Of a DNA stretch of 64,000 nt, positions 10,422 to 46,520 are shown one piece after another. Below the pieces are notes generated by a model. It did not search any database. It was not told where the DNA came from and was given only the letters and a program-made list of their open reading frames with translations. The translations under genes and the position numbers were made by a program. Position 1 is the stretch's first letter, and every line of letters begins with the position of its first letter. The stretch comes from Buxus sempervirens. Its lineage: Eukaryota; Streptophyta; Magnoliopsida; Buxales; Buxaceae. The DNA is taken from the NCBI GenBank assembly GCA_947561395.2, contig OX387194.1, positions 33,056,036 to 33,120,035 on the forward strand, read 5' to 3'.

Positions 10422-10443
10422 TTTACTGCCTTAACGATTTTTT

Positions 10444-10451: not shown

Positions 10452-10543
10452 ACCCATATGGAACATCATTGTGACACTTTTAACAATTTGAAAACTCCCT
10501 GAGCACGTCGTCTCTCGCTTTCCTTGGCTTCTTTGGCGCTTCC

Positions 10544-17068: not shown

Positions 17069-17087
17069 GGCAAAAAAGGCTCGAATG

Positions 17088-17990: not shown

Positions 17991-17992
17991 GG

Positions 17993-21986: not shown

Positions 21987-22093
21987 GGTATTGTAGACAC
22001 CCCAAATTGCACTATAAAATGAGAAAATAGTAAAAACATGTAATTAGAGCTTAAATCAAGTCAAAAATGCATAAAAATTGACTAAACAGGCTT

Positions 22094-22201
22094 TGCCCGT
22101 ATTTCATTCACGGGCCGGTCGCGCTCGAAATTTCTTTACGGTCAGGTGCGCTCGTGATCTAAATACGGGCACCATTGGACCGTAAATCATTTACGGTCAC
22201 T
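22094..22201. promoter_or_regulatory. CCGT-N9-ACGG array in the 5' LTR of element A
   Basis: Four palindromic units, the first a perfect GCCCGT-N9-ACGGGC. Two half-sites have decayed by C to T or C to A changes (CTCGT, CTCGA) relative to the 3' LTR. Confidence 0.88.
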
Positions 22202-22398
22202 AAAGGCTCGTGCGAGTTTTATTCTTCTCTCGTTTTCCGAGCTTTATCTTTAGTCCAATATCCCTTTAAATGAGCGAATTATGTGTTTTATTCGTTGAAG
22301 CCACCTTGGTTGGCTATGGATGGGCATTATCTCCAACTTTCACTCTATCCTGAGGGTCAGGATATATCCTTCTGGACCAACCATGCCCCTGTGCTTGC

Positions 22399-22411
22399 CT
22401 ATAAATAGAGG
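22399..22411 (+). promoter_or_regulatory. LTR TATA box, element A
   Basis: CTATAAATAGAGG is a strong plant-type TATA box and is repeated in the 3' LTR (45115-45127) and in LTR B. Confidence 0.75.
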
Positions 22412-22511
22412 TGAGATTCTTAGGCTAAGGGCCACGAAATTTTGAAATCCAAGGAACTCCAAGAGAAGAGAAGAGCCCCTGCTGCCTTGCCTGCCCAATT
22501 CAGGTAAGTCC

Positions 22512-25500
22512 TGTGCGCACCCGATTTCGGTCGCACGACGAGGTGCACGCAAAACGATGCGTGCCTCGGGATTGTTTGGAGTCGCCACTGCCTGATGGGG
22601 TGCAGGCAGACACCTGGGTGCCTAAGTTCTTCTACTAAGGCTTGGTCTGCGGCTTGAGATTCTAAGTAGGTTCTCGGTTGCGGTCTGGGGAAGTCCGTAG
22701 ACACCCCAGTCCACCTCGTCAAGTGACGGGTCCCATAAGTTTCCTTGGTTTGAGTCAACTTTGGTCTCTCACTTATCCGATGCCTAATCCGGCATTCAAT
22801 TTTGGTTAAGTCTGGCGGGACTGCCAAAGTGGTGTGGGTCCCTTTACTTGATTTTATCTTCTTATTATTGAATGAAGTGAGTCTGATTGGGTGGGCCCCG
22901 TTGGAGGGCCCACGGATCCCTTGGTGGGCTTGGTTGAGCCCACGTGTCCCTTGGTGGGCCTCAGTCTAAACCTGAGAGGCCCTTTGGGCTTCGGTTTAAG
23001 TAAATTGAATTTACTTAAATTCCAATTTGATTTATTTAAGTGAGTTCTATACACAAGTGAGCCGGGACTGTTTATGGGCCCTTGAGTGGGCCACATAATT
23101 GGCTGTCAAGTGGTTTGAGTTATCTTTGATTAACCTTTGCCAAAATGGGCCAAGCATTGCGCTTGGGGCCCTTTACCTGGGCTTGGGCTTGAAAGCCCAA
23201 GACTTCTTGAGTTAGGGTTTTGACACCCTAACCTTGGTTTAATGGGCTTAGTGGGCCCGACAGGCCCTGCCCGTGGTCTCGGCCAAATCACAACCTACTT
23301 TAAGCATGCATGGCCCAAATAGGGCTTGGGTGGGCCTCAAATGGTCTGGCCTACTCAAATCTCTCATTTATCTTAGTTAAGCATGAATGGGTTGGTCGGG
23401 CTTGGTGGGCCCCGTTGGAAGGCCCACCAGAAATCAATTTGGACCGAGTCGGTCCATGGCCCATTTTGGGTTTCCGGGTGACCCGGAAACCCTTCTGGTT
23501 CACTCAGATTGATCAAACACACCAAAAAGCAGCACAAGATCAGAAAATTAGCAAAAATGCAATCTGGCAGTGTAGCCGGCCTAAGATGCCGATTACACAT
23601 AAGGCTCAGTGTATCCGGCATCTGTTGCCGGATACACACATGACTTAGTGTATCCGGCATTTGTTGCTAGCTACACACATGACTCTGTTGATCCGGCTTG
23701 AGTTGCCGGATCACCATACAGAGTCTACTTTTTTGGATTTTTTCAATGGGGTTGGTTTCTTGGGTCTCCTAGGATGTTCTGGGGGTCGTGTGGGCCCCTG
23801 TGTGGGCCCAAAGTGGTTCCAAAATAGAGAAGAATGAGCTTCTCTTTAGGGAAAACTAAGAGGATGGGAGGAGGTTAGGGATTTGCCTCCTCTCTCTAAA
23901 CCAAATCAACACACAAACAAGGACTCAAGTGTCCCTGTTTTGGCTCCCTTCCTTCTTCTAAAAACCCACCATTACTTTACATAGAAAAAGCAAAACGAGG
24001 CATCCATAAGCATGTTCAAGTCACAACCAAACTGAAGAACAAGATAGGCCATTAAGAGTTAAAAAAAAAAAAGCAAGTTCTCCGTGCATGCAAATCATAT
24101 TAAGCAGTAGCACATGTATGGTACCTAGATATGCTTCTAATGAATGAACAAGTAAGCATGCTTACAAAGTCGGCACAAGGCCGAATGGGCTGTTTTTTCA
24201 TGACCCAAAATAATGACTAACAAGGCAAAATCATGATCAACACATACAAAACAGCAAATAAGATGGGATACTCACATGATCCTAAAGAGGGCAAAACATA
24301 TATTTTAAACAATAATCAATCCGTGACTGCGTACGACAACAACTAGGCCTTATGTGAATAAACAAATAGAGGATACACTTAGCATGCATCAGGTGATATA
24401 TTCATCATCCTACCCACATACATCACCCATTCATCCTAAAAAGGAAGCACTTGAAGAAGGGAAGAGGGGGGTTACTCGTGGGGTACATTAGACGATTAAT
24501 CAAGAGGGAATATGCTCCCTTCTAAACTAAAGGAAAGCACACCCAACAGCCGTGAAAATAAAACAAGAACACATACAAGACATTTCAAAAAAGAAACCGA
24601 TCGAGAGCATGGGAGGAACAATACTTATGAAACATCATGAAATGCCTCCATTTTCACATATGTAGTGTAAAAGGGAACAAGGAACGATACCTTGGGGTGG
24701 AAGACCCTTCTTGTTGTGCGTAGAGGTCCTCTTGAAGCCAACCGAAGTGCTGGAGCAGCACCTTCACACACCAAGAGCACCACCTTCACCTTCCTCTAAG
24801 GCTCAAGTGAAGGAGAAGAAGATCAAGAAGAGGTTAGATGGTTTCTAGGTGGTCTCCTTGGGACTAGGGAGCAAGGAGAGGTGGAGGAGCATGGGGGAGA
24901 GAGAATGGAGCTCATGAGAGAGTTGAGAGAGCTCCCAAAAAAATCAATCGATCACTTGTTTGTGCTAGGGTTTTCTTTTTATAAGGAATGACAAAAATTC
25001 AATTATTTCCCTACTTTATCACCAAAACCCTACCCCTTTTCCATTCATGCCCCTTTTTTAAGAAAACTAATGATTGCATTCTTTTCTTAGCCTCCAAGTA
25101 AACTTGGAGGCTAAGTTTGCTTGGACGTGAAGAATTCGGCCAACCATTTATTATTTTTTTATTTTTATTTTTTCTTTATGTACTTAATTCATTTGCCTTT
25201 TTTTATTATTATTTTATTAAGATCTTTGTTTTATGCATCTTTTAATTTTCTTTTCTTTTTCTTTTACTTTAAATACTTTAATTAGATTTTTTGCAAAAAT
25301 ATTATTTTTTAATTCAAAACTTTTCATTTTGCTGCTCTTTCTTCACTGTTTGCCACGTGTGCAGATTTTTCAGAAACTTTAACCGCCCACAACTCGCTCG
25401 TCTGATATCCGATTTTGGCAAACTTAGTGGCGTTGGAATTAGTGCGAGATTCCCTATCCACTGAATTTCAGTTTAGCAGCAAACTCGAGTTTTTTAGTAG

Positions 25501-25881
25501 AAGCGCCGGGCCGCGTCCGGGAGCCGATTTTGCTCATATTTCCTTATCCGGGACTCCGATTCCAGCAAACTCAGTTGCGTTGGAATCGTGTCGAGATGCT
25601 CTTTCTGTTGGTATCAAATGAGGTAGCTGATCTGGGGTTTAGCAGAAAGTCAATTTCTGATTTTCTCAGATTTGACCAGCCCATAACTTCTTCATCTGGA
25701 CTCCGATTTGAGCAAACTCTGTTCCATTAGAATCATATCGGAATCCTCTTTCCAATGGTAGGAAGCATGGTGACTGATTTGCACCGGATAAAAAGTCAAC
25801 TTTTTAACTTTCTCAAGTTTGACTTTTCAATTAAAATTTCATTTTCTGCATTTTGGGAGGTGCAAAAATGAGGTGCTTACA
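22512..25881 (+). mobile_element. Solo LTR of the TGTGCGCACC family
   Basis: The 3370-bp unit begins TGTGCGCACC, ends GTGCTTACA and is flanked by the 5-bp duplication AGTCC (22507-22511 and 25882-25886). It has no internal coding region, so it is the product of recombination between two LTRs. It is GGGCCC/GGCCCAC-rich in its first 1.3 kb. It carries four CCGG-N9-CCGG palindromes at 39-bp spacing (23575-23715). Related LTRs lie at 49395-50345 (reverse), 59248 and 62692. Confidence 0.92.
23575..23715. promoter_or_regulatory. CCGG-N9-CCGG palindrome array in the solo LTR
   Basis: Four units sit at exact 39-bp spacing (17-bp site plus 22-bp linker), e.g. CCGGCATCTGTTGCCGG. Units one and three have one decayed half (CCGA, CTAG). 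Confidence 0.85.
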
Positions 25882-27168
25882 AGTCCCTTTACCCTTTTAT
25901 TTTTCTGTCTTCAATTCTAGAAGTAATAGGATCTTCTCCATTGCTGTAGAATAAGGCCATCTTTTTTATCTTGTATTACCAAACTTGTCTCTAAGTACCT
26001 CAAGAGTCTCTCTAGCCGTAAAACGTGAAGAGAGAGTTAGGGGAAAAGAGAACAGGTGGATCCCTAGAATAGAACCCCATATCTGTTTTTTCCTTTTTTC
26101 TAGAATAAAGCCTTTGATTGTGTTTGTGTAACCAAACCTATCTCCAAGTACCTCAAGAGTCTCTCTAGCCGTAAAACGTGAAGAGAGAGCTAGGGGAAAC
26201 GAGAACAGGTGGATCCGTAGGGTAGACCCGCATGTGCTCAAATTTGTGAGATATGGCTGCTTTTGATATCATGATCATGTTTTAATGGTTTTTATTTTAT
26301 ATCTGAATGAATCATGTGAATCTATGATATTTATAGCATGAGATCCCCTCTTTTTTATAAAATTTGGATTTTTCACCACTTTTGCACCTACAGCACTGTT
26401 TTCGTGATTTTTGTGATTTTAGGCTAAGATCTTGGATCTATCATGATCAATATGGTAGATCTGAATCTAAAAGCCTGAAAGTAAATTCTAGGGTTTCATG
26501 ATATGGTCTTTGAGTCGTTTTTCACTTTTGAGAGAAGACCCTACGGTCTCAGTTCTCCCCTTTTGATGTTCTTCATCAACGTGGGTATTTTTGGTTTTGA
26601 TTTCTTGATTTAATGTGAAATTTGGGCTATATCTATGTCCTGGACTATTCAAGTTCAATTTTGAAATATTGTATAAAAATCATATTTTTCTAGATTTCTA
26701 GAATTTGACTTGAAGCCAGATTTTTGGATTTTTCACTTTAAATTGATTTTATTTGATTTTATCTCAATTTTTTTTTGATCATGAAACCCTAGGAATGGTA
26801 TGATCATATTTGAAAGTTCTGGATCAATCAGACTATTCATATGAAAAAACCATACAATTTTGTCTTTTTTGTGATTTTTATAGCAAGCTTTTTCCTTTAT
26901 TTTTAACATGAACAAATACCTGGCAACCACCTTGTGTGGATGAATAGGGGTGCCTAACACCTTCCCCTGTTCATAACCTAATCCCCTTACCCATCTCTGG
27001 TTGTTTTTTTAGGAGGGATATTTTTACCCTAAAATTTTCCTTTTGAGCTTATTTGATATTTTGGTGTCCATTCACACCTAAATTGAATGGTGGCGACTCT
27101 GTGTTTTTAATTAATCCCGCGTGATGATTTAGGAAGTCATTAGATTGATTTTTCCCATATCTCACAAC

Positions 27169-27187
27169 TGGCGACTCTGCTGGAGAC
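27169..27187 (+). other. Primer binding site of element A
   Basis: TGGCGACTCTGCTGGAGAC begins two bases after the LTR. A TGGCGACTC... primer site, attributed to tRNA-Arg, is characteristic of Ogre-type elements. A second TGGCGACTCTG lies inside the LTR end at 27092-27102. Confidence 0.85.
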
Positions 27188-28400
27188 TTGTGGATTTAAG
27201 CCTTTTGGTTTTTGTTCATGTTTTTGATATTTTTGGATTTGCTTGCTATTTTTAGCATTGTCTTTGTTTTGCTTGCTATTTGGGGTTCTTAAGCATGTTT
27301 GGTATGTTCTAAATATGAATTATTGCTTAAGAGTTCATGGGGGTAGAAACCTGCTTAATTTTGATTTATAGGATTGTTTCTAGAAACATGCGTAGGGGAG
27401 GTCCGTTTCCTGAACTATGCTGATTTCTTGTTATATTTTTATAATAGCATGTTTTAATTTTCAGCATGATCTCCATGATGTGTTTTTGGGTTGTATAGCA
27501 TGATCATATGTTTGTATGATTGGATGATTTTTATGAGCATGATTTAGGCGCTATAGGATTGCTTTATTTACTTGTTTACTTTAAATATGCTTTCCTATTA
27601 TGCCTTAGTTTGTTTATGCATGGCTGCGAAAAGAGTGGCAAGGGTTTGGGACGTTGTGGATGCACCCTATTTTTACAATGCACTGTGCACATTTTATTTT
27701 TTTACACAGCCTACCCTTAACCTATAGGAAGTTGAACCCGAATGTGTGTAGCTTGGCGCAACGATGTCGATACTTCGGAAAGCGAAAGTGAAAACATTCA
27801 CCTTAGAACTTTGAGCCAATGATGTGATGATAATGTGGATCTGGGATTCTGGTCATCACTAGGCTTGAGTGCTAAGTTGCCATTAGGCCAAAACCCAAAA
27901 CCCCTACGCTTGAAGGTGGAATTACACGTTTTTTGCTAAAGTACACAATTACGTGGGTATATGGGTTTGTAATTGTGGGAAGGCCGTTTGCATGGCTACA
28001 AACCAGGGCATAATGTAGATGCCATATTGAAGGTAAACAAGGTAACAAGGTAAACTTAATTTGTGCATTATTTTCATGTCATAGGGGTGTCATGGTGCCC
28101 ATTGGTTCGGGATAAAATTGGTCCCGAAATATGCAGGTTTCCTAAAATTGGTGTAGCCCATTGGAAGAGTCTCGAACTCTGTTTAGAATCAATCCTACCC
28201 AACGTTTGTACAAGAGGCAACAAAAGGGTACCAAAGTATGGTATGGTGTCGATTTGGAGGGAACATGTGCCCTCCTAAACATGTATTTGTTTTGCAAATA
28301 TGTCAAAGCCCACTTCGGGGCAGTTTAGAGGCCTAGCATGGGTGAACCGTATGTTTGGATGAGCAATCAAAGTGATCAAACCATGAAAAAACTGAAGAAA
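27188..28400 (+). other. Leader of element A, first part
   Basis: About 1.2 kb without a recognisable frame. Long untranslated leaders are usual in this lineage. Element B lacks the region, so no comparison is possible. Confidence 0.6.
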
Positions 28401-28412
28401 CATAAAGCAGCT

Positions 28413-28551
28413 CCGTAGTTATAATACGGGCTGGGCTCGCCCGTAGTAAACATACGGTCTGGGCTCGCCCGTATTAATCATACGGTCACGGCCTGCTCGT
28501 AATTTAAATACGGGCACAACCGGACCGTACTGTGTATACGGGCTTAGCGGA
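28413..28551. promoter_or_regulatory. CCGT-N9-ACGG array in the leader of element A
   Basis: Five units at exact 28-bp spacing; nine of ten half-sites are intact (one CCGT is TCGT). It lies about 1.1 kb upstream of the gag frame, between LTR and coding region, where no promoter is expected from the classical model. Confidence 0.88.
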
Positions 28552-28645
28552 GAATTCAATTTTAATCAGTTTTCTCAACTAGATTCTGTTCCTTTAACTT
28601 TAAATGATGAAAGAGAGATGAGTTTGAATGAAATGCTTCAAAAAA

Positions 28646-29425
28646 AAATCTTTGGGCCTTTGAAAGCCTTTGAATTTCAGATCTTTTTCAAAAATATCCT
28701 TGGGCCTCTGAAAGCCTTTGAATTTCAGACTTTTTCTAAAAGCATCCCTGGGCCTCTGAAAGCCTTTGAATCAGACTTTTTCAAAAAATCCTTGGGCCTC
28801 TGAAAGCCTTTGAATTTCAGAATTTAACCTTTTGGGCCTCTGAAAGCCTTTGAATTTCAGACTTTTTCCAAAAAACCCTTGGGCCTCTAGAAGCCTTTGA
28901 ATTTCAGAATTTGACCTTGGGCCTCTGGAAGCCTTTGAATTTCAGAATTTAACCTTTTGGGCCTCTGAAAGCCTTTGAATTTCAGAATTTAACCTTGGGC
29001 CTCTGGAAGCCTTTGAATTTCAGACTTTAACCCTTTGGGCCTCTGGAAGCCTTTGAATTTCAGACTTTAACCTTTTGGGCCTCTGAAAGCCTTTGAATTT
29101 CAGACTTTAACCCTTTGGGACTCTGGAAGCCCTTGAATTTCAGATTTTAACCTTTTGGGCCTCTGAAAGCCTTTAAATTTCAGAATTTAACCTTTTGGAC
29201 CTCTGAAAGCCTTTGAATTTCAGACTTTTTCTAAAAGCACCCCTGGGCCTCTGAAAGCCTTTGAATTTCAGACTTTTCCTAAAAATACCCCTGGGCCTCT
29301 GAAAGCCCTTGAATTTCAGACTTTTTCTAAAAATACCCCTAGGCCTCTGAAAGCCTTTGAATTTCAGACTTTTTCCAAAAATACTCCTGGGCCTCTGAAA
29401 GCCTTTGAATTTCAGATCTTTTTCT
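28646..29425 (+). repeat. Leader minisatellite of element A
   Basis: About 18 imperfect copies contain the core GGGCCTCTGAAAGCCTTTGA, with spacers of two kinds (short AATTTAACCTT-type and longer TTTTTCTAAAAATACCC-type). Unit length varies from about 39 to 55 bp. The array ends just before the gag acceptor-like site. Confidence 0.93.
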
Positions 29426-29566
29426 CTTATGGGACCCGTTGGAAGCCCTAGAATATTCCAACAATTCTAAAAAAAAAAGTAAAGAAGAAGCAAATAAAAA
29501 AACTAATCCAAACATTTGTTCACCCAGCTAATACATAGGCATTCCTAGGTAGGTGAAGGAGATTAA

Positions 29567-31719
29567 ATGGGCATTAATATATTTTGTTTATTTTTTCCAG
29601 GTACCAATACACTTGCAATCATAGCTCCTGTAACCAGATCAAGAGCTCGCACCATGAATCCCATTGAGAATGAAGCTGATGCTCCTCATCCTGATGTTGC
29701 CCTGCTCCAAGAACAAGTAGCAGGACTAGCCCGGATGCTAGAGAACATACTATCTGTGCAAGCCCAACAAGTGCAGGCCCAAAATCAAGCATCCACTTCC
29801 AACCCTGGACCTCCACCCCAAATCAATATTCCACCTCCAGTTCAACCAATTCCTGAACCTATCTATGAACCCACCCCTGAACCTATACTGATTAGGGATG
29901 AGATAGTTGAGTCAGACAAGGCTAAGGAAAAGGAAAAAAAAGGGAAGAGGTCGAAAGGAAGTTCCTGCATAAACTAGAAATGATCCAGGATGAACTAAGA
30001 GAAGTAAAAGGGGTAAGCAACTTCGGGGGCACCAACTTTGAAGACTTATGCCTGTACCCCAAAATTAACCTGCCGACTAAGTTTAAGTGCCCAAACCTAG
30101 ACAAGTATGATGGCACAGGCTGCCCCATGAGCCACCTGAAGTTATACTGTGGTGCCCTATGCCAGTTTGGGCGGGATGAAGGTGTATTCATCCAGCTTTT
30201 CCAAAGGAGCCTGACTAGAACTGCATTGAGATGGTTCGCTACTCTAGACCATGGAAAGATCAGAAGATGGAAGGACCTAGCAGATGCCTTCCTGGCTCAA
30301 TACCGGTTCAATTCAGAGATCGTGCCAGACAGGTACGACGTAATGAGAATGAGCAAAGGAAGGGATGAGACTGTAAGGCAGTATGCCAAGAGGTGGAGGG
30401 AGACTGCCTCTCAAGTCAGGCTACCTATGCTAGAGCAGGAAATGATTTCCACCTTCATCAGCACATTGGGCCAACCCTTCTACAGCCATTTGGTGGGTTA
30501 GACCACCACAAATTTTGCTGCCTTGGTTCAAGTGGCTGACCGAATAGAAGACAGGATCAGGCCAGGTAAGATAATTGACCACTCTGTCATGGTTAGTCAG
30601 CAAGACCCTAATCTGAAGAAAGGAAGTGGGATAAAGAAGAATGGGAACAAGAAAGAAGGGGAGCTGAACATGGTATAGCCACCATCTGGCCCTAACAAGC
30701 CCATACAAATCAACACATCCGCTCACTTTCCTACTCCATCTGCTCCATCTACCCAGGCCCCCATGAGGGTTAATGTTCCAGCAGCACCTTCAGACCAAAA
30801 AAGGGTTTTTACTAAAGAGGAGAAGGATGCCTATTTTGCAGCAAGGAGAAATAGGGTTTTCACCCCTATTCCCATGACTCCTTCTCAATTGCTGCCCACT
30901 TTATTGCAGGCAGGGTATATCACCTTAAGAGAGCCCAATCCGAATGCATCTAAGGGGAGAAATTATGACCCCTCCACCACTTGTGATTTCCATATGGGTG
31001 CACCTGGGCACCCTACTGACAAGTGTTGGCCTTTAAAACATGCTATTCAGGATTTATTAGACCAGAATACCCTGTCTTTCAATACAGGGGCTCCTAATCC
31101 TTCGAGAACCGATATTGGACAAAACCCGCTGCCCCAGCATCACGGGGCAGGCCCATCTAATGTCATAGGAGTTATCTCCTCTGATAAAATAACCTTTGAC
31201 CCATCTCAATTAATTGCTCCTATAGGGACAACGGTCAAAGTTTATTTTGACAGAAGAAATGAAGACAAAGAAGTAAATGTGATTTCAAAAGGGAATGATA
31301 GTGCTGCAAAGAACATTAGCTCATCTTTGGACCCGGTCTCATCTCTCATGGCCCAAATGAACATTGCAAAACCGCCTTTGGTCATTAATTGCAGTCCATC
31401 CACCTTTACTCCACCCATTCAATCTAAACCACCCTTGGTCATAAACTGTGACCCTCTTAGTGCATCAGTCACTTCTACAACCCCTCAATCAAAACAACTT
31501 CCACCATTGGTTGTTAATGTTCCCCTTACTCAGACTTCCACATCCAAGTCCAAACTTCCTCCATTAGTGGTAAATGTCCCTAAGCCTTCCTACTCTGAAT
31601 CGGCTGTACCATGGAACTACAGTGAGACATTTACTACTACATTCCCTGCAGTTGAAAGCAAAGAAGAAGTAAACCTCATGACAAGATCAGGAAAAGGTAT
31701 GGGGGAGGAAGAAAAATAG
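29567..31719 (+). pseudogene. gag: gag region of element A
   Basis: An acceptor-like TTTTTTCCAG (to 29600) precedes PVTRSRARTM, so gag may start at the ATG at 29654 or upstream. The first part has a coiled-coil segment (LQEQVAGLARMLENILSVQ) and a Pro-rich linker. The retrotransposon gag domain follows (YDGTGCPMSHLKLYC, ALRWFATLD, MRMSKGRDETVRQYAKRWRE). A single knuckle-like C/H segment (CDFHMGAPGHPTDKCWPLKH) then leads into a linker. Breaks: a frameshift at a run of A near 29940, and TAG stops at 30499, 30676 and 31717. From 29980 on, everything to the end of pol is in one frame, so the ancestral product was a single polyprotein. Gag would form the particle packaging the RNA. Confidence 0.88.
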
Positions 31720-31725
31720 AAAGAA

Positions 31726-34509: not shown

Positions 34510-36864
34510 TACATAAGCCGGTTCATAGCACAGCTCACTGCTATCTGTGAACCAATTTTCAAGCTTCTAAGAAAGAATAACCCGACAGTCTGGAATGACG
34601 ATTGCCAAGAAGCCTTTGACACAATAAAGGAGTATTTATTGAACCCACCTGTGTTAGTACCACCAACTCCAGGAAGACCACTGATTTTATACTTGTCAGT
34701 TTTGGAGATGTCAATGGGGTGTGTCTTGGGACAGCATGATGATACAGGTAGAAAGGAAAGGGCGATTTATTATCTAAGTAAAAAGTTCACAGAATATGAA
34801 GCAAAGTATTCTCCTTTGGAAAAGACTTGTTGTACTTTAGTGTGGGCAACTCAGAGACTAAGGCACTATTTCCTTAGTCACTCCACATTATTAATATCCC
34901 GAATGGATCCTTTGAAGTATTTATTTGAGAAATCGGCTTTAACTGGCAGAACAGCGAAGTGGCAGTTATTACTCTCTGAATTTGACCTCACCTATATCAC
35001 ACAGAAGGCCATTAAGGGTCAAGCCATTGTGGATCACTTAGCTGCACACCCTTTACCAAAACACCAACTCTTAAAGACCAACTTCCCTGATGAGGCAATC
35101 CTGTTTATTGAAGAAGAAGAAGGTGAAAGCTCTTGGCAAATCTTCTTTGATGGGGCCGCCAATATGAATGGAAATGGAATAGGGGCTGTTTTGATTAAGC
35201 CAGATGGGGCACACATCCCAATCGCAGTGAAGTTAAGGTTCCAATGCACAAATAATATAGCAGAGTATGAAGCATGCATAATTGGGTTGCAAGCTGCCTT
35301 AGACCATGAAGTAGAGGAACTTGACGTATATGGAGATTCGAGTCTTATCATCTTCGAAACAACTAGTGAATGGAAAACCAAGGATCACAAATTGATCCCC
35401 TATCACCAGTATTTGGAAGAAATAAGCACCAAGTTTACTCGAATTTCCTTCAATTATATGCCAAGGGCCAAAAACCAGTTTGCGGATGCTTTAGCTACAT
35501 TGGCTTCAATGGTCAGTATGCCAGAAGGTGTTGATATTATGCTACTAGAAATTGAAGTCAGGGATGAACCAGCTTATTGTCTTGTTCTAGAAGAAACACC
35601 AGAAGAAGAAGTACCATGGTTTCAAGACATTAAGAACTTCCTAAACGATCGGAGTTTGCCAGAAAATGTCACTTCTACAAAGAAAAGAATAATACAAAGG
35701 TTGGCAGGACAGTTCTTATTAAATGGTGGGCAGTTATACAAAATATCACACAACGATATCCTACTTAGATGTGTTGCCAAGACCAAATCAAAAAGGCTAA
35801 TTGATACGGTACATGGAGGAGTTTGTGGACTCCATATGAACGGGCACATGCTTGCTAAGAAGATTCTGCGATTGGGATATTACTGGTTGACTATGGAACA
35901 CGATTGCTATATACATGTCAAAAGGTGTCATTTATGCCAAGTATATGCTGATAACAAGAATGCACCTCCAAGTGCATTGCATAATATGACATCTCCATGG
36001 CCCTTCTCTATGTGGGGCATAGACGTCATTGGAATGATCTCTCCAAAGGCATCAAATGGACATAGATTTATACTTGTAGCAATCGATTATTTTACCAAGT
36101 GGGTAGAAGTGGCTTCGTATGCAAACATCACAAATAGTCATGTTCTTAAGTTTGTAAAGCACAGCATCATTTGTCGCTATGGTTTGCCAAGTGCTATAAT
36201 ATCAGACAATGCTTCGAACCTTAAGAATAAGGATATGAGGAAAATGTGTGAACAGTTTCAGATTACCCATCATAAGTCAGCTCCTTACAGACCAAAGATG
36301 AACGGGGCAGTGGAAGCAGCAAATAAGAACATAAAGACGATCATTCAGAAGATGGTAGTGAGTTTTAAAGATTGGCATGAAATGCTGCCACTCGCTCTAC
36401 ATGCTTACAGAACCTCGATTCGGACTTCTACAGGGGCAACCCCGTATTCCTTAGTATATGGGATGGAAGCAGTTTTACCAGTGGAAGTGGAAATACCTTC
36501 ACTAAGAGTGCTAATGGAAGCTGAATTAAAAGAAGCTGAATGGGTACAGTCAAGACATGATCAACTCAATTTAATAGAGGAAAAGCGGTTAAGAGCGCTG
36601 TGTCATGGCCAATTGTATCAGAAGAGAATGGCCAGGGCTTACAATAAGACGGTGAAGCCCAGAACGTTTCAAGAAAGAAATTTGGTATTGAAGAAAATTT
36701 TACCCTTTTTGGAAGACTCTCGTGGAAAATTTAAACCAAATTGGGAAGGACCTTATGTTGTCAAGAAGGTCCTATCAAGGGGTGCTCTCATCTTAACAGA
36801 AATGGATGGGAAAGATTTTCCTGAGCCAATTAACTCTGATGCAGTAAAGAGATATTTTCCTTGA
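34510..36864 (+). pseudogene. pol: Dual RNase H and integrase region of element A
   Basis: The frame continues from the reverse transcriptase through the TAG. The first RNase H is followed by an archaeal-type RNase H (FFDGAANMNGNG, AEYEACIIGLQAAL, YGDSSLI), the arrangement of the Tat lineage. The integrase has a zinc-binding HHCC part (HGGVCGLHMNGH, CHLCQ) and the catalytic D-D35E triad: GIDVIGM, SDNASN and GAVEAAN, with 35 residues between the last two acidic residues. The C terminus ends KRYFP. From 34639 the ORF is open for 741 codons. Apart from the upstream TAG the region looks intact. Confidence 0.93.
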
Positions 36865-37797
36865 ATGAATATTACTAAGAAATGATCTGAGGCCATATTT
36901 CCTTATTTCCTAAAATTTTCATCCCTAGTCAAGCCAATTTGAGCCTGTTCGTCTTCTTTGATAAACCTAAATCGGACTTACAGTCTTATACTAGGGCAAA
37001 GCCAATAGGGGCAAAAAAGGAGGAAAAAAAAAGAAAAAAAATAAAAAGAGAAAAAATAGGGGCAAATGAAAGCCAAATGCAAAAGAAGGGAAATGGGATT
37101 AAATACATCATGACTGTAAGTCCAGTTGACCTATTTTCACACTTGGAAAATTTTGAGCCTTTAATACCGTTTCTTTCATAAACCGAGCTTAGCCTTTGTT
37201 TCGTCATATTCTTAAGCCCTCGGTGATTTTAGTATATTCATTCAACTTTCAGAGTAGGATTAGTGATGACGGAATGCAGAAGCCGGCCCTAGTGAAAACC
37301 GTAATTGGCGCTAGGAGCAACAGGGGCAAAAAGAAAAAAAAGAAGAAAAAAAAAAGAAAAAGAAAAAAGAAAGAGAAGAATCAAAGGTTGAGTTGATCAT
37401 GTGGTCTAAGTTTGAAATCAACATGAGCATTGAAAATATAGCAGAATAGCAGGGTTAATCATGAAGGAAAAGCCATTAGGGGATGACTCTAAAGGTCGTA
37501 GGATAGACAGATTTGGTCTCTCCCTATTGATTGGGCCACCCTTTTCATTATGCAACCTGATTTTTAATTCCTTTAATTATATGTGATTAAGTGTTTTGGA
37601 TCAGTTTTCAAAAAAAAAAAAACTATACTTTGGCCAGTGATGAGAAATCAAATACTTTTTCATAAAACTTTTGTTTTTATAAGCATCTGAGAATTCTGAG
37701 GCCAATAATATAAAACCTATTTTGAATTAAATCTATTGTCTTTCCACTAGTGGAGTTTGCTTTTGTATAAAAGTATGAAAAAAAAGAATAAAAGAAT
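36865..37797. other. Spacer between pol and the antisense genes of element A
   Basis: No coding frame is seen. Purine-rich stretches (37010-37060, 37325-37380) and a run of A near 37608 occur. Sense and antisense transcripts converge here. Confidence 0.7.
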
Positions 37798-39558
37798 CTA
37801 AGCCCTATTCCCTAACTGCTCTTCAAGCTCCCTAATCCTAGCTGCCTGAGTTGCAATAATTCCAGAAGCTCCCTCTGCATCAGGGTCGCTCAAAAAGGAG
37901 ATGATCTCATCTGAAAGTGAATGCTTGATCTTCAGTGCCCTAAGGTCAGCCAGGGAATCTTGATATTTCTTCCGCATCGCTCGGACTTCAAAGCGACAAG
38001 CCTGTCTTTGTTCTTCAAGTTTCTCCTCCATGGCAATGCGGCAAGATCTCTGCTCTTCAAGTTGCCTCTCCAGATTAATACCATTTATCCTGAGCTCTTG
38101 TGCTTCTCGTACCCATATTTGTTGAAGCCGCTTGTGGGTGGCCCTTTCAAACTCCAGGATATCCTCATAAGAAGGGGGAAGAACTGCAGGAGGATCCCTT
38201 GGTACTGGGGCATGACTCTGCACCTGCTCTTTGATCCAGAATTGATAATCCTTCACATGGGACTCAGAAAAGACTGGACCCCGCAGAAAACGAACATAGG
38301 ACCACTCATTCATTAATTGAGCATTTAGCCCCATGGTGGCTGGTGTAAGTGGCCCAAAGAGCTTCTCATATCTAGTGGGGATCATAATCCCCTGGGTCGC
38401 TCTAAATTGCCGAAGAACCCTCAAAGGAAGATAAAGAACAGCAGATTTCAAGCCTGCTAGGACCAAAAAGTTCTTATCTCTGAAGCTGATCACTGTCTCT
38501 AGAGTGGGCTGATAAGTGCCAGGCCATCTCACTTGATCATCCTGGAGAGTACCCAAGAAAGTGAACCAGCCCTGCTTGCCGCCTTGGATGTTAGGACACC
38601 CCCTATTGCTCATCAAAACAGGAACTTTCAATCTTGGAAAGAAGCGGCTAGTTATCTCTTCAACCTGGCTAAGGTGGTCAAGCAACCAAAGCTGCAGAAA
38701 CAGGGAGTATTTCAATTTATTTTCAAAGCAAAGAAAAAAAAGAAAAAAGAAAAGAAAATAAAGAAAGAAAGAAAAAAAAGAAAAAGAAAAAAAAAGAAGA
38801 AAAGAAAAAAAGAAAAAAAAAGAAAAAGAGAAAAAAAATTTCTATGTTATTTTTCTTACCTGTAGGATAGGGGCACATGCAAGGAAGCGCTTCTTCTTCA
38901 TAAAATAGCAGTCAGTTAAAGCCTGGTATATCTCTGCTAAGATCATAGGGGCCAACCTCTCACGTTCCCTAACCTGACAGATAACTTAGATAAGAGCCAA
39001 GTCAACCTGGTCATCACCCTGTGGAAAAAGCAACTGATTGACCACTACCAGAGTCAAGGCATTAAACCTAGCATCCTTGTCTTCACTCCTTAGAAGTTTT
39101 TCAGTCAAAAAGGTCTTGGAAAAGGTCAATAGTGCATCAGAATTTCCTAAGTCCTTCTTCCCTATACCCAAGAAAGTGGAAGCCTCTTTTTTGTAACTAG
39201 GCTTTAGGGGTGGGTTCACAACTTTTTCAGAAAATCTTAGGCCAATGATGGTTTCAATTTCTTCTATGGTAGGAGTCATTTCTTTATCATCAAAGCGGAA
39301 GAGATTCAGTTCAGGTACCCAGTGTCCAATCAAAGCTTCAATGATTTCCCACTTAAAGGGAATTTTAGGGAGGTGTAGGATGTAGCCTAAGTGGATGGAA
39401 TCCCAGCGAATCTTCTCATCAAGGGTCATGGAGTTAACCCATCTATCATAGAAGGAGTCCACAATATTGTACCTGGTGAGATTAGGAGGTTTTGATCTAA
39501 CAGGTTGTCTTGCAGGAGAAGATTCACCTGTAGAAGAGAAAGGGGCGAGGGAAGCCAT
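37798..39558 (-). pseudogene. DUF7745-type antisense gene of element A
   Basis: Two exons on the minus strand (39558-38860, 38691-37798) flank a 168-nt intron. Exon lengths (699 and 894 nt) are the same as in element B. The product of 530 codons has the motif order WEIIEALIGHWVPELNLFRF, TPTIEEIETIIGLRF, LAPMILAEIYQAL, FLACAPILQ, LAGLKSAVLYLPLRVLRQF, then a long coiled coil (LERQLEEQRSCRIAMEEKLE). Exon 1 is broken by one TAA near 38987, where B has a Ser codon; exon 2 is open, unlike in B. Unequal decay in the two copies indicates that both derive from a coding gene. The intron survives because the gene is antisense to the genomic RNA and is not spliced from it. Function is unknown. Confidence 0.87.
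38692..38859 (-). other. Intron of the antisense DUF7745 gene
   Basis: On the minus strand it runs from GTAAGAAAAAT to CTGCAG and is almost wholly pyrimidine. The plus strand therefore reads as a polypurine Lys-Glu run that is not a gene. Confidence 0.8.
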
Positions 39559-39649
39559 GGAAGCACCAAAGGAGACAAGGAAAGCAGAAAACGGAAGGCT
39601 CAGGGAGTTTTCAAACTTTTAAAAGTGTCACAATGACGCTCCCCATGAG

Positions 39650-39657
39650 TTTATATA
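39650..39657 (-). promoter_or_regulatory. TATA box of the antisense DUF7745 gene
   Basis: CTATATAA on the minus strand, about 95 bp before the ATG, in the same context as in element B. Confidence 0.7.
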
Positions 39658-39667
39658 GAAAAAATCG

Positions 39668-39811
39668 TTAATGCAGTAAAATCCGTAAATAGAATACGGG
39701 CATATCGCGCCCGTATAAAGAATACGGACAAACTGTGACCGTGAAAACTTTACGGGCACAGTGCGCCCGTGTTCATACTACGGGCACGGGTTGCTCGTAG
39801 TCTAAGTACGG
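39668..39811. promoter_or_regulatory. CCGT-N9-ACGG array upstream of the antisense DUF7745 gene
   Basis: Five units at exact 28-bp spacing lie about 10 bp beyond the TATA box. It matches the array of element B in position and unit number, but the N9 spacers differ, while most half-sites are kept. Confidence 0.88.
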
Positions 39812-40025
39812 TTACTTCCGAAAAATGCAAAAAATTGGGCAGTTTCAATTTCTTTGTTTTCCTAAGCTTCACCTGTCCCTGTTTTAACATTCATCATAAA
39901 AACTGAAAAGAAAGAAAAAAAGAGCACAAATGAATGAAAACCAAACTTCTTTTATATATATATATAAATGAGTACATCACTTTTGTCAAAAATACAAATG
40001 TACATGAAGAATCCTAATCTACTGT

Positions 40026-42881
40026 CTATGCAGGTCCACCCCTACAGCCACGGCCTCGTCCTCCGCCCCGACCACGGCCTGAAGATTGCCTGCGCTCAAA
40101 GACATGCCGCACAATATTGCGGGCTGTGCTACGGGTCATCTTGCTCAAAATAGACTGGATATCATGCCACATATATAAAGGCACAAGGCCAGCAATGGGA
40201 TGATCAGGAGGAACGTACCCGGAAGTATCTACATATCCCGTAGACTCGGGATCAAAATCAGTACGGGAAGAATCCGCCGAAGGATTAGCAGTAGCAGGCG
40301 TCTCCTCTACAGCCTCCATAGCAGGACCAGCAGGAGCAGATGTCCCAGGCACATCAGCATCAGGACCAGGCTCTACAGGATCAGCTGTAGCCTCCTCCAT
40401 CACCACGGCCTCCACGGCAAGCTCTACCACAGCGGCATCCATAACCGACTCCATATCTACATCCGCAAATGCATCATGAGCAGTCTCAGCTACTGGGGCC
40501 GACTCTGGCACATCCTCAGCAGCAGGTGCAATATTAGCCTCGATCTCAGGCTCTGCTGCAGGTGCCTCTACCGGACTGGGAGAAGTCACAAACTCCATCC
40601 GTGCCACAGAAAATACCTCGCCACGAAGATGCAGGGGCACAGGTGAAGCAGGTGAATAAGGGCCGGCTGTGTCCTCCTGAAACTAAGAGAAGAAATTTCA
40701 GTCAGAACAAGACAAACTAATACGAGATGCTGAGTATGAGATGGACCCGCCTGGTCCTATGCATCAAATGGACCCTCCTGGCCCTGTGCTCTGGCTAGCT
40801 GCCCCCGGAGGTCTGAGATCGTGATATAAAGGGCGTCCCGCTCGGCAATCGCAGCATCTCGCTGGCGCTCTAGATCAGCATACCGAGACTGGATCTCTGC
40901 CAACTAAGCCTCCCGAAATAGAAAAGGAGGAGTCAAAAAATGCCGAGTTCAAATGAAATGAAAATAGAATATCACAAAGGGAGAAAGCATACCGTCGTAT
41001 CATAGGCCCTAATCACTACCCCTCCTATCTCTGTGACTCCACCACGGACAGGCATAGGTGGCATGAGGCACCCAACTGAAGCTCGCCTGAACCAGGCATC
41101 ATAGTCACCCACCTCTAATAATGTCTCTGCCTCAGTCCACTCTAGGAACTGGGCAAGATCAACAGGCATAGGAGGAAAGGAGGGGGTAGTATCTGGAGGA
41201 ATGGCAGGAATCCGCGGCTCTCCCACATGCTGAAAGAAGAAGCGCTCGCCGCAATACCAGATGCTGCCCATCTGACCAATAAAGAACTGATATCTCTGAC
41301 GTCTCTGGTCAGGGGCAAAAGCATCATCTCTGGCCGCATATAGGGCCAACACCTCATGAATGTCCTCCATCCTGGGGACGAGCAGCTGAAAAATAGAAAA
41401 AAAAAAGATATTAGACATATGATTCAGGAGAAGAAAAAGAAAAGAAAAAAGAAGAGAGAAGAAGAAGTTAAGTAGATTACCTCAGACCGGTACAGACTGT
41501 CCAGATGGGCCCGGGCGGACCTAGGACGACTCTTTTCAGAGTCGTGCTCCACATGACACCATCTACGTGCCATGGGATACGTCTCCTCAGACATCGTAGA
41601 GGTAGGACGGAAATAGGGTATATAAACCCTAGCAAAGAACTGCAGAAAGAAGAAAAAAGATCAGAAGAATAGAAAAAGGAAAAAAAAAAAGAGAAGAAAG
41701 AAAGAGAAAGAAAAAGAGAAATAATTGTTTCACCTGCAGGAAGGGCCAGAAGAATCTGCACCCAACCCCAGCTCCTCTGGAAGTAGAGAGGTTGCTCACT
41801 GACCGGCGCAGGCCAGCCAAAATGGTACCAAAAATGAGCGGGCCCCATGCATACCTCCTCGCTCGCTGCAAGTCTCCCAATAAACTCAGAAAATGAGGAC
41901 TAACTAAAGTCGTGTCCTCTAGGAAGAAGCAGGATCCCATCATATACAGAAAAAGAAATCGAAAGGCATACGGGAAAACTGGATCACCGGCGGCAAGCTG
42001 GCCAAACTGCCTCATCCGGAAAGTCTCTCTCAACCATATCAGAGACAATCTCGCTCTCCCTCTATCCCATGCCTCAGGAGGCAGCACAATATATCCAAGG
42101 TAAGCGGCGATCTCCTCGGCATCTGGCATCACCATCTCAGGAATAATATCACCGGTCATCCTAATCCCGGTGATAAGGGTGAAGTCAGAAGGCCGGATCC
42201 CGATCTCGACATCTGGGAAGTGGAAGCTCAAAGTCTCCGGGAAGAATCTCTCGAGCAGTGCAGCAATGAGGGCCCGATCCATGCGCACGTCCGGAATAGT
42301 AATAAATAGGCCAAAGCCATATAAGCCTAGCTCCCGGCGGTAAGCTGAACTGCAAGCTCCCAAGAATCTAATGAAGCTGGCCCAGCTCACTCTAAAATGG
42401 GACATCGGATACTCCAAAGGGATATCCGCCCTAATGCACGTTGAGGGATGAGTCCTCAAGCTATGCAAGAGGTCGGTATCCCTAATCTAGGCAGCCACCT
42501 CCTCAGAAACCTCAACTCTGGTCCTGGCCTCATCTCTACCACGGCCTCCTCTACGGCCCTCATCATGGCCTCTGTCTCTGTCTCCACCTCGGCGCCTGCT
42601 ACGGCTCCTGTCAAGGCCTGAAGCCTCAACTGCCGGCTAAGGAAATAATTGGAGAGAAGAAGGAATCAGGATGTATTTTATGAAAGAATATTGAATTCAG
42701 AAGAGTTAGAGAATACCTATGGGGTCGCCTCACGCGAATCCCCAGAAGGAAGATCTGGGATATCTGAATCCGAATCCCTCTCGGCTCTCGAAGACGAGAC
42801 CACATCAGCAGGATCACGCCTAACCCTCGAAGAGGAAGGCTCATCTGCAGGATCCCTGGAAGATGATCGAAGGCGGGCCAT
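40026..42881 (-). pseudogene. Antisense plant mobile domain (PMD) gene with RGG tail
   Basis: Predicted exons on the minus strand: 42881-42717, 42636-41734, 41639-41481, 41385-40993, 40903 to about 40740, 40682-40026, all with GT-AG-type borders except the fifth donor, which is unclear. The second and third exons hold the PMD (Pfam PF10536-like) order: ALIAALLERFFPETLSFHFP, GIRPSDFTLITGIRM, ARLSLIWLRETF, FLFLYMMGSCFF, LGDLQRARRYAWGPLIFGTI. The fourth exon has QFFIGQMGSIWYCGERFF; the fifth is a short coiled coil (LERQRDAAIAERDAL). The last is acidic, Ala/Pro/Glu-rich, and ends SSGRGRGGGRGRGCRGG. Total length is about 800 residues. Stops: TAG at the end of exon 1 (Glu in B), TAG near 42487, TAG near 40757. 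PMD proteins in plants (e.g. MAIL/MAIN) act in silencing-related pathways and also occur in transposons; its role here is inferred only. Confidence 0.8.
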
Positions 42882-42892
42882 CTACGGTTCAA

Positions 42893-44230
42893 ATCAGGGA
42901 GATGTTAATTATTCTTGTTAAAATTTTTATTGTTTGATTATTATTCTAACCAAGTTTAATTGATTGGCAGGAAAAAGGAAAAATGGAGAACGGAAGAAAG
43001 TGATTCAAAAACTCCCGATCAAAATCAGAAATCAACTAAGGAGTTTATTTTTGTTGAGAAATTTTATTGTTCTTTGCTTTAATGAATAGGAAGTTCAGGT
43101 TTCTTGTATATGAAAAAAAAAAAAGAAGAGAAGAAAAAAAAAATTATGTATATTGATCTTAATTTTCTCTTTTGGGATTTTCTATAAAGACCTAACCATT
43201 CAACTTTATTTGGTTTCAAGATAGAAGTTTAAGTCTATTTGCATGGATATTGGAATTGCAGAGCCGGAAAGCCATTATTCATCTCAAGATAAGGGACTTC
43301 AATAAGAGGCTGGCCATTCGAAGACAAGAACCTCAGAATTTCAGTCAAGAATCAGAAAAATTGCAAATAACAGTTCAGAGGTGTCAATTAACAAGGAAAA
43401 TGCAAAGAGTAGTAAGTAAACCAGTTATCAGCTCAAAAACAGAAAATCTGTGACTTGAGATAATCATCTCTAATTCAAGGAGCAGAAGAAATAAAAGTGT
43501 CATTCAGGACATATCATTCACAAGGAAAAGCAGCATATTACAATGATGAACAAACCAATGTTGGGGAGTTTAATCATTCCAGAATTCAAGAGCATAGAAA
43601 TAGTGAATCAAATCAGACCAATGTAGACAAAGTAAGCATTTGGTTTAATCAAGAGCAAAAAAAAAAAAAAATTGGATTTTACTGTCACATGTATTGCTCA
43701 TAAGAGAAGTTTACAGAAATTTTGGCCAAGCAGAAAAATCACATGAGGAGTAAATCAGGCCAAGCAAAGATTCAGGTCTAAGAAACAAATCAGAAAATTT
43801 TTTTTTGGGTCGAATGCATATCTCCCAACAGTGAACATGGAATTGGGGATTATTCTCAAACCATAAACAGTCAAACTCATGCATGAACCAGACTTGATGC
43901 TATTACTGTTTGTGCCCAATAGAAGAGAGGTTCGATCACCTACCTATTTAGACCGAAATATGAAATTTTGTTAAACCTCAAGGAGTGCTCACGACCGTTT
44001 GGGGATGATTCGAAGCACACTCAAAAACCTAATCACACTCACGGCAGTGGAAGAAGAAGCAATGAATCCCCAGAGGAATCGGTCGTCGCCGGATCACCGG
44101 AATGAACAGTGGTCGCCGGCGAAGTCGTGTGAGGCGTCAGAGAGTTGGAGAAGAAGAGGAAGGACCGGAGAAGAGAGTGCGGTCGCAGAGAAATTAGGGT
44201 GAAATGCGAGCAAGAAGAGAAGAAGTCGCG
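42893..44230 (-). other. Leader and untranslated intron of the antisense PMD gene
   Basis: An acceptor CCGTAG abuts the ATG at 42881, as in element B. Pyrimidine-rich leader sequence lies near 44000-44230 on the minus strand. No coding frame was seen between. Confidence 0.5.
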
Positions 44231-44250
44231 GTCGCGGTATTAAGAAGAGA

Positions 44251-44355
44251 GTAAAATCCGTAAACTCAGTACGGGCTTCAGGTGACCGTGGAAGTAATAC
44301 GGTCTGGCACGCCCGCGATCAAAATACGAGCCGAATCAGTCCGTAATGAAAATAC
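44251..44355. promoter_or_regulatory. CCGT-N9-ACGG array upstream of the antisense PMD gene
   Basis: Four units at spacings of 28, 27 and 28 bp; two half-sites are imperfect. It corresponds to 8407-8507 in element B. Confidence 0.85.
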
Positions 44356-44690
44356 GGGCAAAGCCAAAAAAGCATATTTTTATTATTTTCTCCACATTTT
44401 TCAAGAGATTAATATTTATATTAGTTGTAAGTTGCAAGGATTGCCACCATACCCACTTTTGTTTAAAAATTTTGACTCAAATCTCACTTCATAGCCACGA
44501 GTGCTCAGTGAGAGGAGAGGGGAGGATTTGGGCCTTAAGCTGAGGGATTTTTTAGCAAATCTTCCAAAATAAATTCTTTTTATAAAATCATCCATTTAGT
44601 CCTTACAAAGTGCAATTGATTAGACAAAAATCTCAGAAAGTGCAATTGGTGGGTCTTTTTGCTCTCTGCTTGTAATTGGTTCCAATTACC

Positions 44691-44707
44691 AGCAAAGAGG
44701 GGGCAGC
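44691..44707 (+). other. Polypurine tract of element A
   Basis: AGCAAAGAGGGGGCAGC directly precedes the 3' LTR. Confidence 0.88.
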
Positions 44708-46520
44708 TGTAGACACCCCAAATTGTACTATAAAATGAGAAAATAGTAAAAACATGTAATTAGAGCTTAAATTAAGTCAAAAATGCATAAAAATTGACTA
44801 AACAGGCTTTGCCCGTATTTCATTCACGGGCCGGTCGCGCCCGAAATATCTTTACGGTCAGGCGCGCCCGTGATCTAAATACGGGCACCATTGAACCGTA
44901 AATCATTTACGGTCTCTAAAGACTCGTGCGAGTTTTATTCTTATCTCGATTTCCGAGCTTTATCTTTAGTCCAATATCCCTTTAAATGAGCGAATTATGT
45001 CTTTTATTCGCTGAAGCCACCTTAGTTGGCTATGGATGGGCATTATCTCCAACTTTCACTCTATCCTGAGGGTCAGGATATATCCTTCTGGACCAACCAT
45101 GCCCCTGTGCTTGCCTATAAATAGAGGTGGGATTCTTAGGCTAAGGGCCACGAAATTTTGAAATCCAAGGAACTCCAAGAGAAGAGAAGAACCCCTGCTG
45201 CCTTGCCTGCTCAATCCAGGTAAGTCCCTTTACCCTTTTATTTTTCTGTCTTCAATTCTAGAAGTAATAGGATTTTCTCCATTGCTGTAGAATAAGGCCA
45301 TCTTTTTTATCTCTTATTACCAAACTTGTCTCTAAGTACCTCAAGAGTCTCTCTAGCCGTAAAACATGAAGAGAGAGCTAGGGGAAAAGAGAACAGGTGG
45401 ATCCCTAGAATAGAACCCCATATTTGTTTTTTCCTTTTTTTTTTCTAGAATAAAGCCTTTGATTGTGTTTGTGTAACCAAACCTATCTCTAAGTACCTCA
45501 AGAGTCTCTCTAGCAATAAAACGTGAAGAGAGAGCTAGGGGAAACGAGAACAAGTGGATCCGTAGGGTAGACCCGCATGTGCTCAAATCTGTGAGATATG
45601 GCTGCTTTTGATATCATGATCATGTTTTAATGGTTTTTATTTTATATCTGAATGAATCATGTGAATCTATGATGTTTATAGCATGAGATCCCCTCTTTTT
45701 TATAAAATTTGGATTTTTCACCACTTTTGCACCTACAGCACTGTTTTCGTGATTTTTGTGATTTTAGGCTAAGATCTTAGATCTATCATGATCAATATGG
45801 TAGATCTGAATCTAAAAGCCTGAAAGTAAATTCTAGGGTTTCATGATATGGTCTTTGAGTCGTTTTTCACTTTTGAGAGAAGACCCTACGGTCTCAGTTC
45901 TCCTCTTTTGATGTTCTTCATCAACGTGGGTATTTTTGGTTTTGATTTCTTGATTTAATGTGAAATTTGGGCTATATCTATGTCCTGGACTATTCAAGTT
46001 CAATTTTGAAATATTGTATAAAAATCATATTTTTCTAGATTTCTAGAATTTACTTGAAGCCAGATTTTTGGATTTTTCACTTTAAATTGATTTTATTTGA
46101 TTTTATCTCAATTTTGTTTTGATCATGAAACCCTAGGAATGGTATGATCATATTTGAAAGTTCTAGATCAATCAAACTATTCATATGAAAAAACCATACA
46201 ATTTTGTCTTTTTTGTGATTTTTGGTGATTTTTATAGCAAGCTTTTTCCTTTATTTTTAACATGAACAAATACCTGGCAACCACCTTGTGTGGATGAATA
46301 GGGGTGCCTAACACTTTCCCCTGTTCATAACCTAATCCCCTTACCCATCTCTGGTTGTTTTTTTAGGAGGGATATTTTTACCCTAAAATTTTCCTTTTGA
46401 GCTTATTTGATATTTTGGTGTCCATTCACACCTAAATTGAATGGTGGCGACTCTGTGTTTTTAATTAATCCCGCGTGATGATTTAGGAAGTCATTAGATT
46501 GATTTTTCCCATATCTCACA
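44708..46520 (+). repeat. 3' LTR of element A
   Basis: 1813 bp, TGTAGACACC to CTCACA, uninterrupted. It has a better preserved CCGT-N9-ACGG array (44811-44914), a TATA box at 45115-45127 and the two internal direct repeats. Confidence 0.94.
44811..44914. promoter_or_regulatory. CCGT-N9-ACGG array in the 3' LTR of element A
   Basis: Four units, spaced 28, 27 and 28 bp. The third is a perfect GCCCGT-N9-ACGGGC and the fourth ACCGT-N9-ACGGT. Confidence 0.88.

Follow-up and report, generated by a model that had tools for sequence, protein, structure and literature searches.

Arrayed sites and antisense genes in plant transposons

The maize DNA transposon Spm encodes a protein of its own, TnpA, that acts through repeated sites and activates a methylated promoter. 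The case described here may be of that general kind—a protein probably encoded by the element, repeated sites, and a promoter to be activated despite methylation—but the element is not a DNA transposon, and the sites and the protein are different ones. It concerns element A, a complete Tat-like Ty3/gypsy long terminal repeat (LTR) retrotransposon in a 64,000-nucleotide stretch of Buxus sempervirens DNA ('the window': contig OX387194.1, positions 33,056,036 to 33,120,035). Element A carries two antisense genes of the plant mobile domain (PMD) kind, AS1 and AS2, and arrays of a spaced palindrome, CCGT-N9-ACGG, in both LTRs, in the leader and at the promoters of both genes.

VANDAL transposons of Arabidopsis offer a parallel. 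In excerpts of the papers that describe them, VANC21 binds arrayed motifs, and the targets of VANC6 carry other motifs (PMC5735166, PMC10398659). There, as here, short motifs lie densely in non-coding element DNA, the motif differs between related families, and the element-encoded proteins diverge. But those excerpts describe DNA transposons with VANC proteins and with YAGTATTAY motifs in the same orientation, whereas here, from sequence alone, we find an LTR retrotransposon with antisense PMD genes, and spaced dyads that recur at promoters with an exact period of 28 or 39 bp. Element A, with its LTRs, gag-pol and 5-bp target duplication, is not a MULE DNA transposon as VANDALs are.

Within the Tat/Retand elements themselves, antisense genes have been described in the region from pol to the 3' LTR, Grande gene23 and Retand TRP28 among them, and tandem repeats noted. 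Going by excerpts, gene23 has its own promoter and a regulatory, DNA-binding role has been proposed for antisense open reading frames of this group (PMC7264820, PMC11963269); the same sources credit those of Retand and Grande with no known function. The domain in element A is PMD/DUF7745, not TRP28, and the excerpted descriptions mention no palindrome arrays shared between promoters. PMD recurs in Ty3/gypsy elements, its function stated to be unknown in the excerpt that reports this (PMC9289625), and PMD genes of tea give rise to phased siRNAs, again by excerpt (PMC10673657). Host PMD proteins, too, have been associated with the control of transposons and with a motif in promoters: in the parts of the reports at hand, MAIN and MAIL1 are required by genes with such a motif (PMC7156037, PMC9899485). 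MAIN, MAIL1 and PP7L are host genes, however, and the motif, DOWN (CATGCAGTTT in the MORC1 promoter), is dissimilar to the sites described below. Among the titles listed in our searches of open-licence PMC papers, none points to arrays of this sort.

Palindrome arrays, their two lineages and their positions

Five arrays, none assigned to a strand, lie in element A (21992..46520, plus strand): four units in the 5' LTR (22097..22196; steps 28/27/28, left half-site altered in two units), five in the leader (28413..28541; 28-bp period), five at the AS1 promoter (39683..39811; step 28), four at the AS2 promoter (44258..44357; steps 28/27/28) and four in the 3' LTR (44813..44912; steps 28/27/28), 105 bp into that LTR. 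Together they comprise 22 units, 16 of them perfect. An initial annotation of this DNA had reported five arrays of four or five units at these places, spaced by 28 bp and rarely 27, and we confirm each of them. It had also described the spacer as always nine bases long and AT-rich, and the outer base pair as often palindromic. These descriptions hold as well: when gaps of 0–29 bases are scanned across the window, gap 9 occurs at 29 sites and every other gap at two or fewer; GC content is 19% in the N9 of the 22 units and 39% in the window; and among 40 units read in the orientation of transcription, G occupies position -2 in 34 and C position +18 in 34. These units read G-(C/A)-CCGT-A ... (T/C)-ACGG-(G/T)-C.

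The 29 perfect sites compare with a mean of 0.05 and a maximum of 1 in 100 dinucleotide shuffles, and 14 of them are followed at a distance of 27 or 28 bp by a second perfect site, which occurred in none of the shuffles. Thirteen lie outside element A: eight in element B, an inverted partial relative (6256..17992, minus strand; 88–90% identical in the main alignments) with arrays in its LTR (7857-7956) and at its AS2 (8415-8514) and AS1 (10291-10419) promoters; one in an LTR fragment (57628); and four in another LTR family (63477-63577). In a wider sample of 264 kb, made up of the window and 20 further stretches from this genome (mostly picked around such sites and hence non-random), CCGT sites number 82 at gap 9 and seven or fewer at any other gap from 0 to 19, with successive sites 28 bp apart (35 cases), 27 (1), 54–56 (9) or 83–111 (6). 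The genome searched comprises 676.5 Mb in 247 contigs; at 35 of the first 50 distinct places in its listing, another perfect site lies within 90 bp. A genome-wide control with the reversed pattern (41,383 vs 24,928 sites) is an unfair baseline, the reversed pattern containing no CpG. Two units in succession were found in no viral contig and in at least 120 stretches of prokaryote genomes, a pattern of 16 fixed bases for which tens of chance matches are expected in 257 Gb.

Element A has a sister lineage of four elements, E1 to E4, whose AS1 is about 76–78% and AS2 44–54% identical to those of A. E1 (C1:3409247-3431933) has LTRs that are 98.2% identical to each other and that start like those of A, yet its LTRs, leader, AS1 promoter and AS2 promoter all carry a different site, ATCCGG-N9-CCGGAT, at a period of 39 bp, and no CCGT array is found inside it. 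E2 and E3 were known at the outset by 5' LTR and leader, and E4 by 3' LTR and AS2 promoter. The layout of E1 predicted where further arrays should lie, and seven more were found there (AS1, AS2 and LTR of E2 and E3; AS1 of E4), every one of the ATCCGG kind. Counting AS1, AS2 and one LTR in each of the four elements, 12/12 arrays are ATCCGG, and so are the leader arrays in E1 and E3. At AS2 the arrays contain two perfect units. In the 264-kb sample CCGG sites number 43 at gap 9 and six or fewer elsewhere, with steps of 39 (24), 38 (2) and 78 bp (3). The two kinds have in common CCGn-N9-nCGG, that is, CCG-N11-CGG, and differ in the fourth base and in the period, 28 or 39 bp, by 11 bp or about one helical turn.

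The converse was examined with exon 1 of element A's AS2 as a genome query, which gave 149 scored copies among 4751 candidates. Ten of the 149, chosen by hand from the upper part of the list, have an A-like AS2 without internal stops; 30 arrays were sought in them (AS1, AS2 and LTR), 21 were located, and all 21 are of the CCGT kind. The other nine (three at AS2, three in the LTR, three at AS1) were not located in the short stretches read. Two further arrays, in another context in stretches L153 and L164, are CCGT-like. That the sister lineage carries a different site and a different period at all its examined promoters is stronger evidence for a common reader than was available to the initial annotation.

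Half-sites persist where spacers change. Between A and B, differences fall at 6/104 half-site positions, 20/117 in the N9, 22/108 in linkers and 60/360 in near flanks (half-site vs N9, p=0.011; vs all three other classes, p=0.0019), though the half-site figure may come out too low because the units were delimited in A. Nine LTR heads of the CCGT kind differ pairwise by 3.5% in half-sites, 26.9% in N9, 17.2% in linkers and 10.2% in flanks, with 27/32 half-site and 16/36 N9 columns invariant (p=0.0009); nine of the ATCCGG kind by 2.1, 17.7, 13.5 and 4.1%, with 29/32 and 19/36 invariant (p=0.001). These sets leave out the short fragment at 57613-57750, a more distant LTR in L142 where CCGC and CCGT sites are mixed, and the LTR heads from the ten copies with A-like AS2. 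The corresponding figures for nine AS1 promoters are 5.2, 23.8, 15.7 and 14.0% (p=0.0007), and for nine AS2 promoters 8.4, 25.0, 29.9 and 21.2% (p=0.004); the AS2 promoters of the four E elements alone give p=0.046. Because the copies compared are related, these p values are guides. In LTR and AS1 copies the N9 differs even more than its flanks. Split by CpG, the comparison of A with B points in the same direction, weakly: CpG-only half-site positions against other positions give p 0.023 for all aligned bases and 0.18 for the 3' region, and non-CpG positions 0.17 and 0.12.

The arrays also keep fixed distances to core promoters. Those of AS1 stop 26 bp (A and B; in A the TATA box is on the minus strand, beyond the last unit) or 17 bp (E1–E4) before the TATA box. 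In the LTRs they are not directly upstream: the 3' LTR array of element A ends 204 bp before the TATAWAW at 45116, the distance seen in eight CCGT copies, while it is 161 bp in eight ATCCGG copies and 200 bp in E4. The AS2 promoters are TATA-less; element A's array lies directly upstream of a CT-rich start region that resembles the sister lineage's, and a stretch after the array, GCGACCGCGACTT...TCTTCTTGCTC, is common to A and E. Across 58 arrays, many of them homologous copies, TATAWAW lies exactly 17 bp past the array in nine, over all three site kinds found (the third is described below), and 10–35 bp past it in 11, against 3.9 expected. The initial annotation's claim that an array sits at every putative promoter stands for the LTRs, AS1 and AS2; close to the leader arrays there is no TATA box. 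Its suggestion that one factor may recognize all transcription units together is supported at its core, half-sites outlasting spacers in the LTR, AS1 and AS2 promoter copies compared, and the arrays examined standing at fixed positions relative to promoters.

Element A, its antisense genes and its surroundings

Element A, with its 3' LTR at 44708-46520 (plus strand), was delimited by self-BLAST, junctions and Pfam matches (gag, reverse transcriptase, two RNase H, integrase). The 5' LTR (21992-27166, plus strand) is interrupted by an LTR-like insert at 22512-25880 that has its own duplication, AGTCC. Both LTRs of element A start with TGTAGACACC, and a 5-bp target duplication, GGTAT, flanks the element on both sides. 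The gag and pol frames (29567..36864, plus strand) match Retrotrans_gag, RVT_1, RT_RNaseH, RVT_3 and rve, and the Pfam matches of the element are PF17917, PF13456, PF03732, PF00078 and PF00665; the dual RNase H (RT_RNaseH plus RVT_3), together with gag, reverse transcriptase and integrase, fits the Tat clade. TGGCGACTCTGCTGGAGA, which starts 2 bases past the end of the 5' LTR at 27166, is by its position a candidate tRNA-Arg primer binding site. Directly upstream of gag the leader carries about 18 copies of a 40–48-bp tandem repeat (28643-29477) that holds an internal inverted repeat, TCTGAA...TTCAGA. At about +510 of both LTRs (22501-22509, 45217-45225) CAGGTAAGT resembles a consensus splice donor, and splicing of transcripts from the LTR is possible. 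The DNA that separates element B from element A holds, at 18900-21110, CACTA-type-looking remnants (DUF4216, and a weak Transposase_24 below its cut-off).

The two antisense genes sit between pol and the 3' LTR. AS1 (37798..39558, minus strand) is DUF7745/PMD-like and has at least two exons; AS2 (40029..42486, minus strand, exon limits approximate) has PF10536, the PMD, in exon 1 (E 2.6e-16). Against a gathering cut-off of 34.9 for PF10536, AS2 of A scores 60.2 bits, AS2 of E1 53.2 and AS1 of B 36.0; AS1 of A, at 23.8, falls below it, and exceeds the DUF7745 cut-off of 26 with 46.3. At E values up to 1 the antisense frames of A match PMD, DUF7745 and weakly DUF2982, and not TRP28 (PF04195). 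DUF1985, which we take to be the VANC-type protein, matches none of the frames scanned. No homologue of the AS1 or AS2 exons appears at E 0.001 in a set of 5.8 billion proteins. AS1 of A and B differ with a dN/dS of 0.12 and 0.18, indicating purifying selection; exon 1 of AS2 was not found in element B.

Sites of this geometry occur in other LTR families as well. The LTR inserted into A's 5' LTR carries an ATCCGG-N9-CCGGAT array (23568..23723, no strand assigned; four units, period 39, two perfect), while other LTRs of its family carry CCGT. A third kind, AACCGC-N9-(G/A)CGGTT, forms an array of three units at 61231..61314 (no strand assigned; steps 39 and 28, the last unit degenerate), with a TATA box 17 bp away on the minus strand and more units at 59825, 61384 and 61460, so that this kind spans 59.8–61.5 kb. 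The LTR of a second family, D, starts near 62692 and carries four CCGT units at 63477..63577 (no strand assigned); in four stretches, arrays of second-family LTRs, like the AACCGC array, end 17 bp before TATA. A short LTR element, F (L125-L126, C1:36000-55999), has CCGT arrays in both LTRs and a single recognized gene, of the DUF7745/PMD-like type, with PMD just below the cut-off; nothing in its stretches matches the gag or pol of A at E 1e-5. Beyond what the initial annotation contained, then, are further site kinds of the same geometry, the joint difference of promoters in the sister lineage, the fixed distance to TATA, and AS2 as a candidate.

Two details of the spacers may be recorded here. 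In many arrays, across site kinds and families, CTGAGT (or ACTCAG) is kept in the N9 of an end unit (uncounted; examples at 44258-44274, 63561-63577, L135:974 and L127:3836), as if such a unit had extra sequence demands or the arrays shared descent. And in the second-family LTR arrays of L139:283-493 the N9 is palindromic too, making nearly or fully perfect 21-bp palindromes (GCCCGTACTTCAAGTACGGGC).

Possible readers of the arrays

We propose that the arrays are bound by a dimer whose specificity differs from lineage to lineage, with the AS2 PMD protein as a plausible candidate, and that this factor jointly activates or un-silences every transcription unit of the element, a proposal we consider evenly poised between right and wrong. 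The dimer would contact CCG and its neighbouring bases separately on each side of the AT-rich N9, and four or five dimers at constant phasing (28 or 39 bp) would fill the region upstream of the LTR, AS1 and AS2 core promoters. The binding protein would most likely be encoded by the element lineage itself. With the PMD genes under their own sites, a positive loop would result, and the LTR would be activated or un-silenced. Each lineage would recognize only its own kind of site, a retrotransposon counterpart of VANC anti-silencing. Occupancy and methylation could compete at the half-sites, because each includes CCG, where methylation of the CG and of the CHG type can both occur.

AS2 would be the natural candidate for the specificity factor, because it is the gene most divergent between the two lineages that differ in site. 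Between A and E, dN is 0.05 for integrase, 0.14–0.16 for AS1 (0.08 for E3, over a piece of 60 codons) and 0.42–0.53 for AS2, with synonymous sites near or beyond saturation. A more elaborate version—an address code of constant dyad geometry and lineage-specific letters, read by a self-encoded antisense PMD protein that would switch on and un-silence only its own kin, with other LTR families exploiting the address—we advance tentatively, with rather more doubt than confidence.

Several findings weigh against this proposal. A single comparison, between two clades, is what connects AS2 with the kind of site. Among the E elements, too, AS2 tends to a higher dN than AS1 (0.016–0.081 vs 0.012–0.034), and in L135, L145, L146 and L147 the dS of AS2 exon 1 is 0.40–0.58 compared with 0.09–0.19 for AS1 exon 1, a two- to six-fold excess; because both are raised there, the divergence of AS2 between A and E may stem from rapid evolution of that region, or from its exchange between lineages, rather than from change of site. 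A single-sequence model of AS2 is too poor (pLDDT 45) to show a DNA-binding fold, and a sequence comparison gave no PDB match at E up to 1. AS1 of element A carries one in-frame stop in exon 1. CCGT arrays occur in second-family LTRs where our queries found no AS2, the leader array of element A has no TATAWAW within 260 bp, and half-site conservation in the AS1 promoters of the four E elements alone is non-significant (p=0.11). Nor is the DOWN motif enriched in the window, with 3 matches at up to one mismatch and 5.2 expected.

Of the alternatives, the one that survives best is that host transcription factor sites have been hijacked, different lineages using different host factors, and that the antisense PMD proteins have some other role. 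Sites for host factors are common in LTRs, CCGT arrays occur in two LTR families, one of them without detected AS2, and the conservation and TATA spacing would suit any activator. Even so, we judge it unlikely, if a serious contender: within an element the promoters carry a single kind of site, and promoter by promoter the two lineages have different kinds. Moreover, the CCG core and the length of the N9 stay constant and the variation lies in the fourth base and the period, as though a single family of proteins had changed specificity, and we know of no plant factor with a CCG-N11-CGG site.

Alternatively, the arrays might recruit a repressor, either the PMD protein or a host silencing complex, that turns the element off, whether to limit itself or to defend the host. 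CCG in each half-site would suit this, being a context for CG and CHG methylation, and an array 17–26 bp before TATA is compatible with activator and repressor alike. According to an excerpt of the report on MAIN and MAIL1, silencing of transposons requires these host PMD proteins (PMC7156037). But sites for a host repressor should be lost, and among copies the half-sites are kept, instead, which leaves this reading improbable.

That the palindromes are RNA hairpins for packaging or processing—the initial annotation had considered a packaging factor—or neutral tandem repeats seems very improbable: the full-length transcript would indeed include the internal arrays and that of one LTR, and there is weak covariation, in CCGT units at outer position 1 (shuffle P 0.0145) and outer position 2 (0.0055), in CCGG units at outer 1 (0.001) and inner 1 (0.003), but a hairpin would have four paired bases and a loop of nine, nothing covaries directly inside the CCGT half-sites, the placement of the arrays follows core promoters on either strand, and neutral repeats would not keep their half-sites while the N9 diverges.

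Returning to the proposed lineage-specific factor: that a protein binds the arrays, that AS2 is the reader and that the effect is positive or un-silencing, we infer. The arrays give the antisense genes a concrete predicted target. They also offer a test of specificity, in the form of two lineages in one genome with similar promoters and different sites. If the proposal is true, self-recognition and escape from silencing, described for VANC in DNA transposons, would have evolved in LTR retrotransposons, too, and the joint change of a site and of the protein that reads it could be watched.

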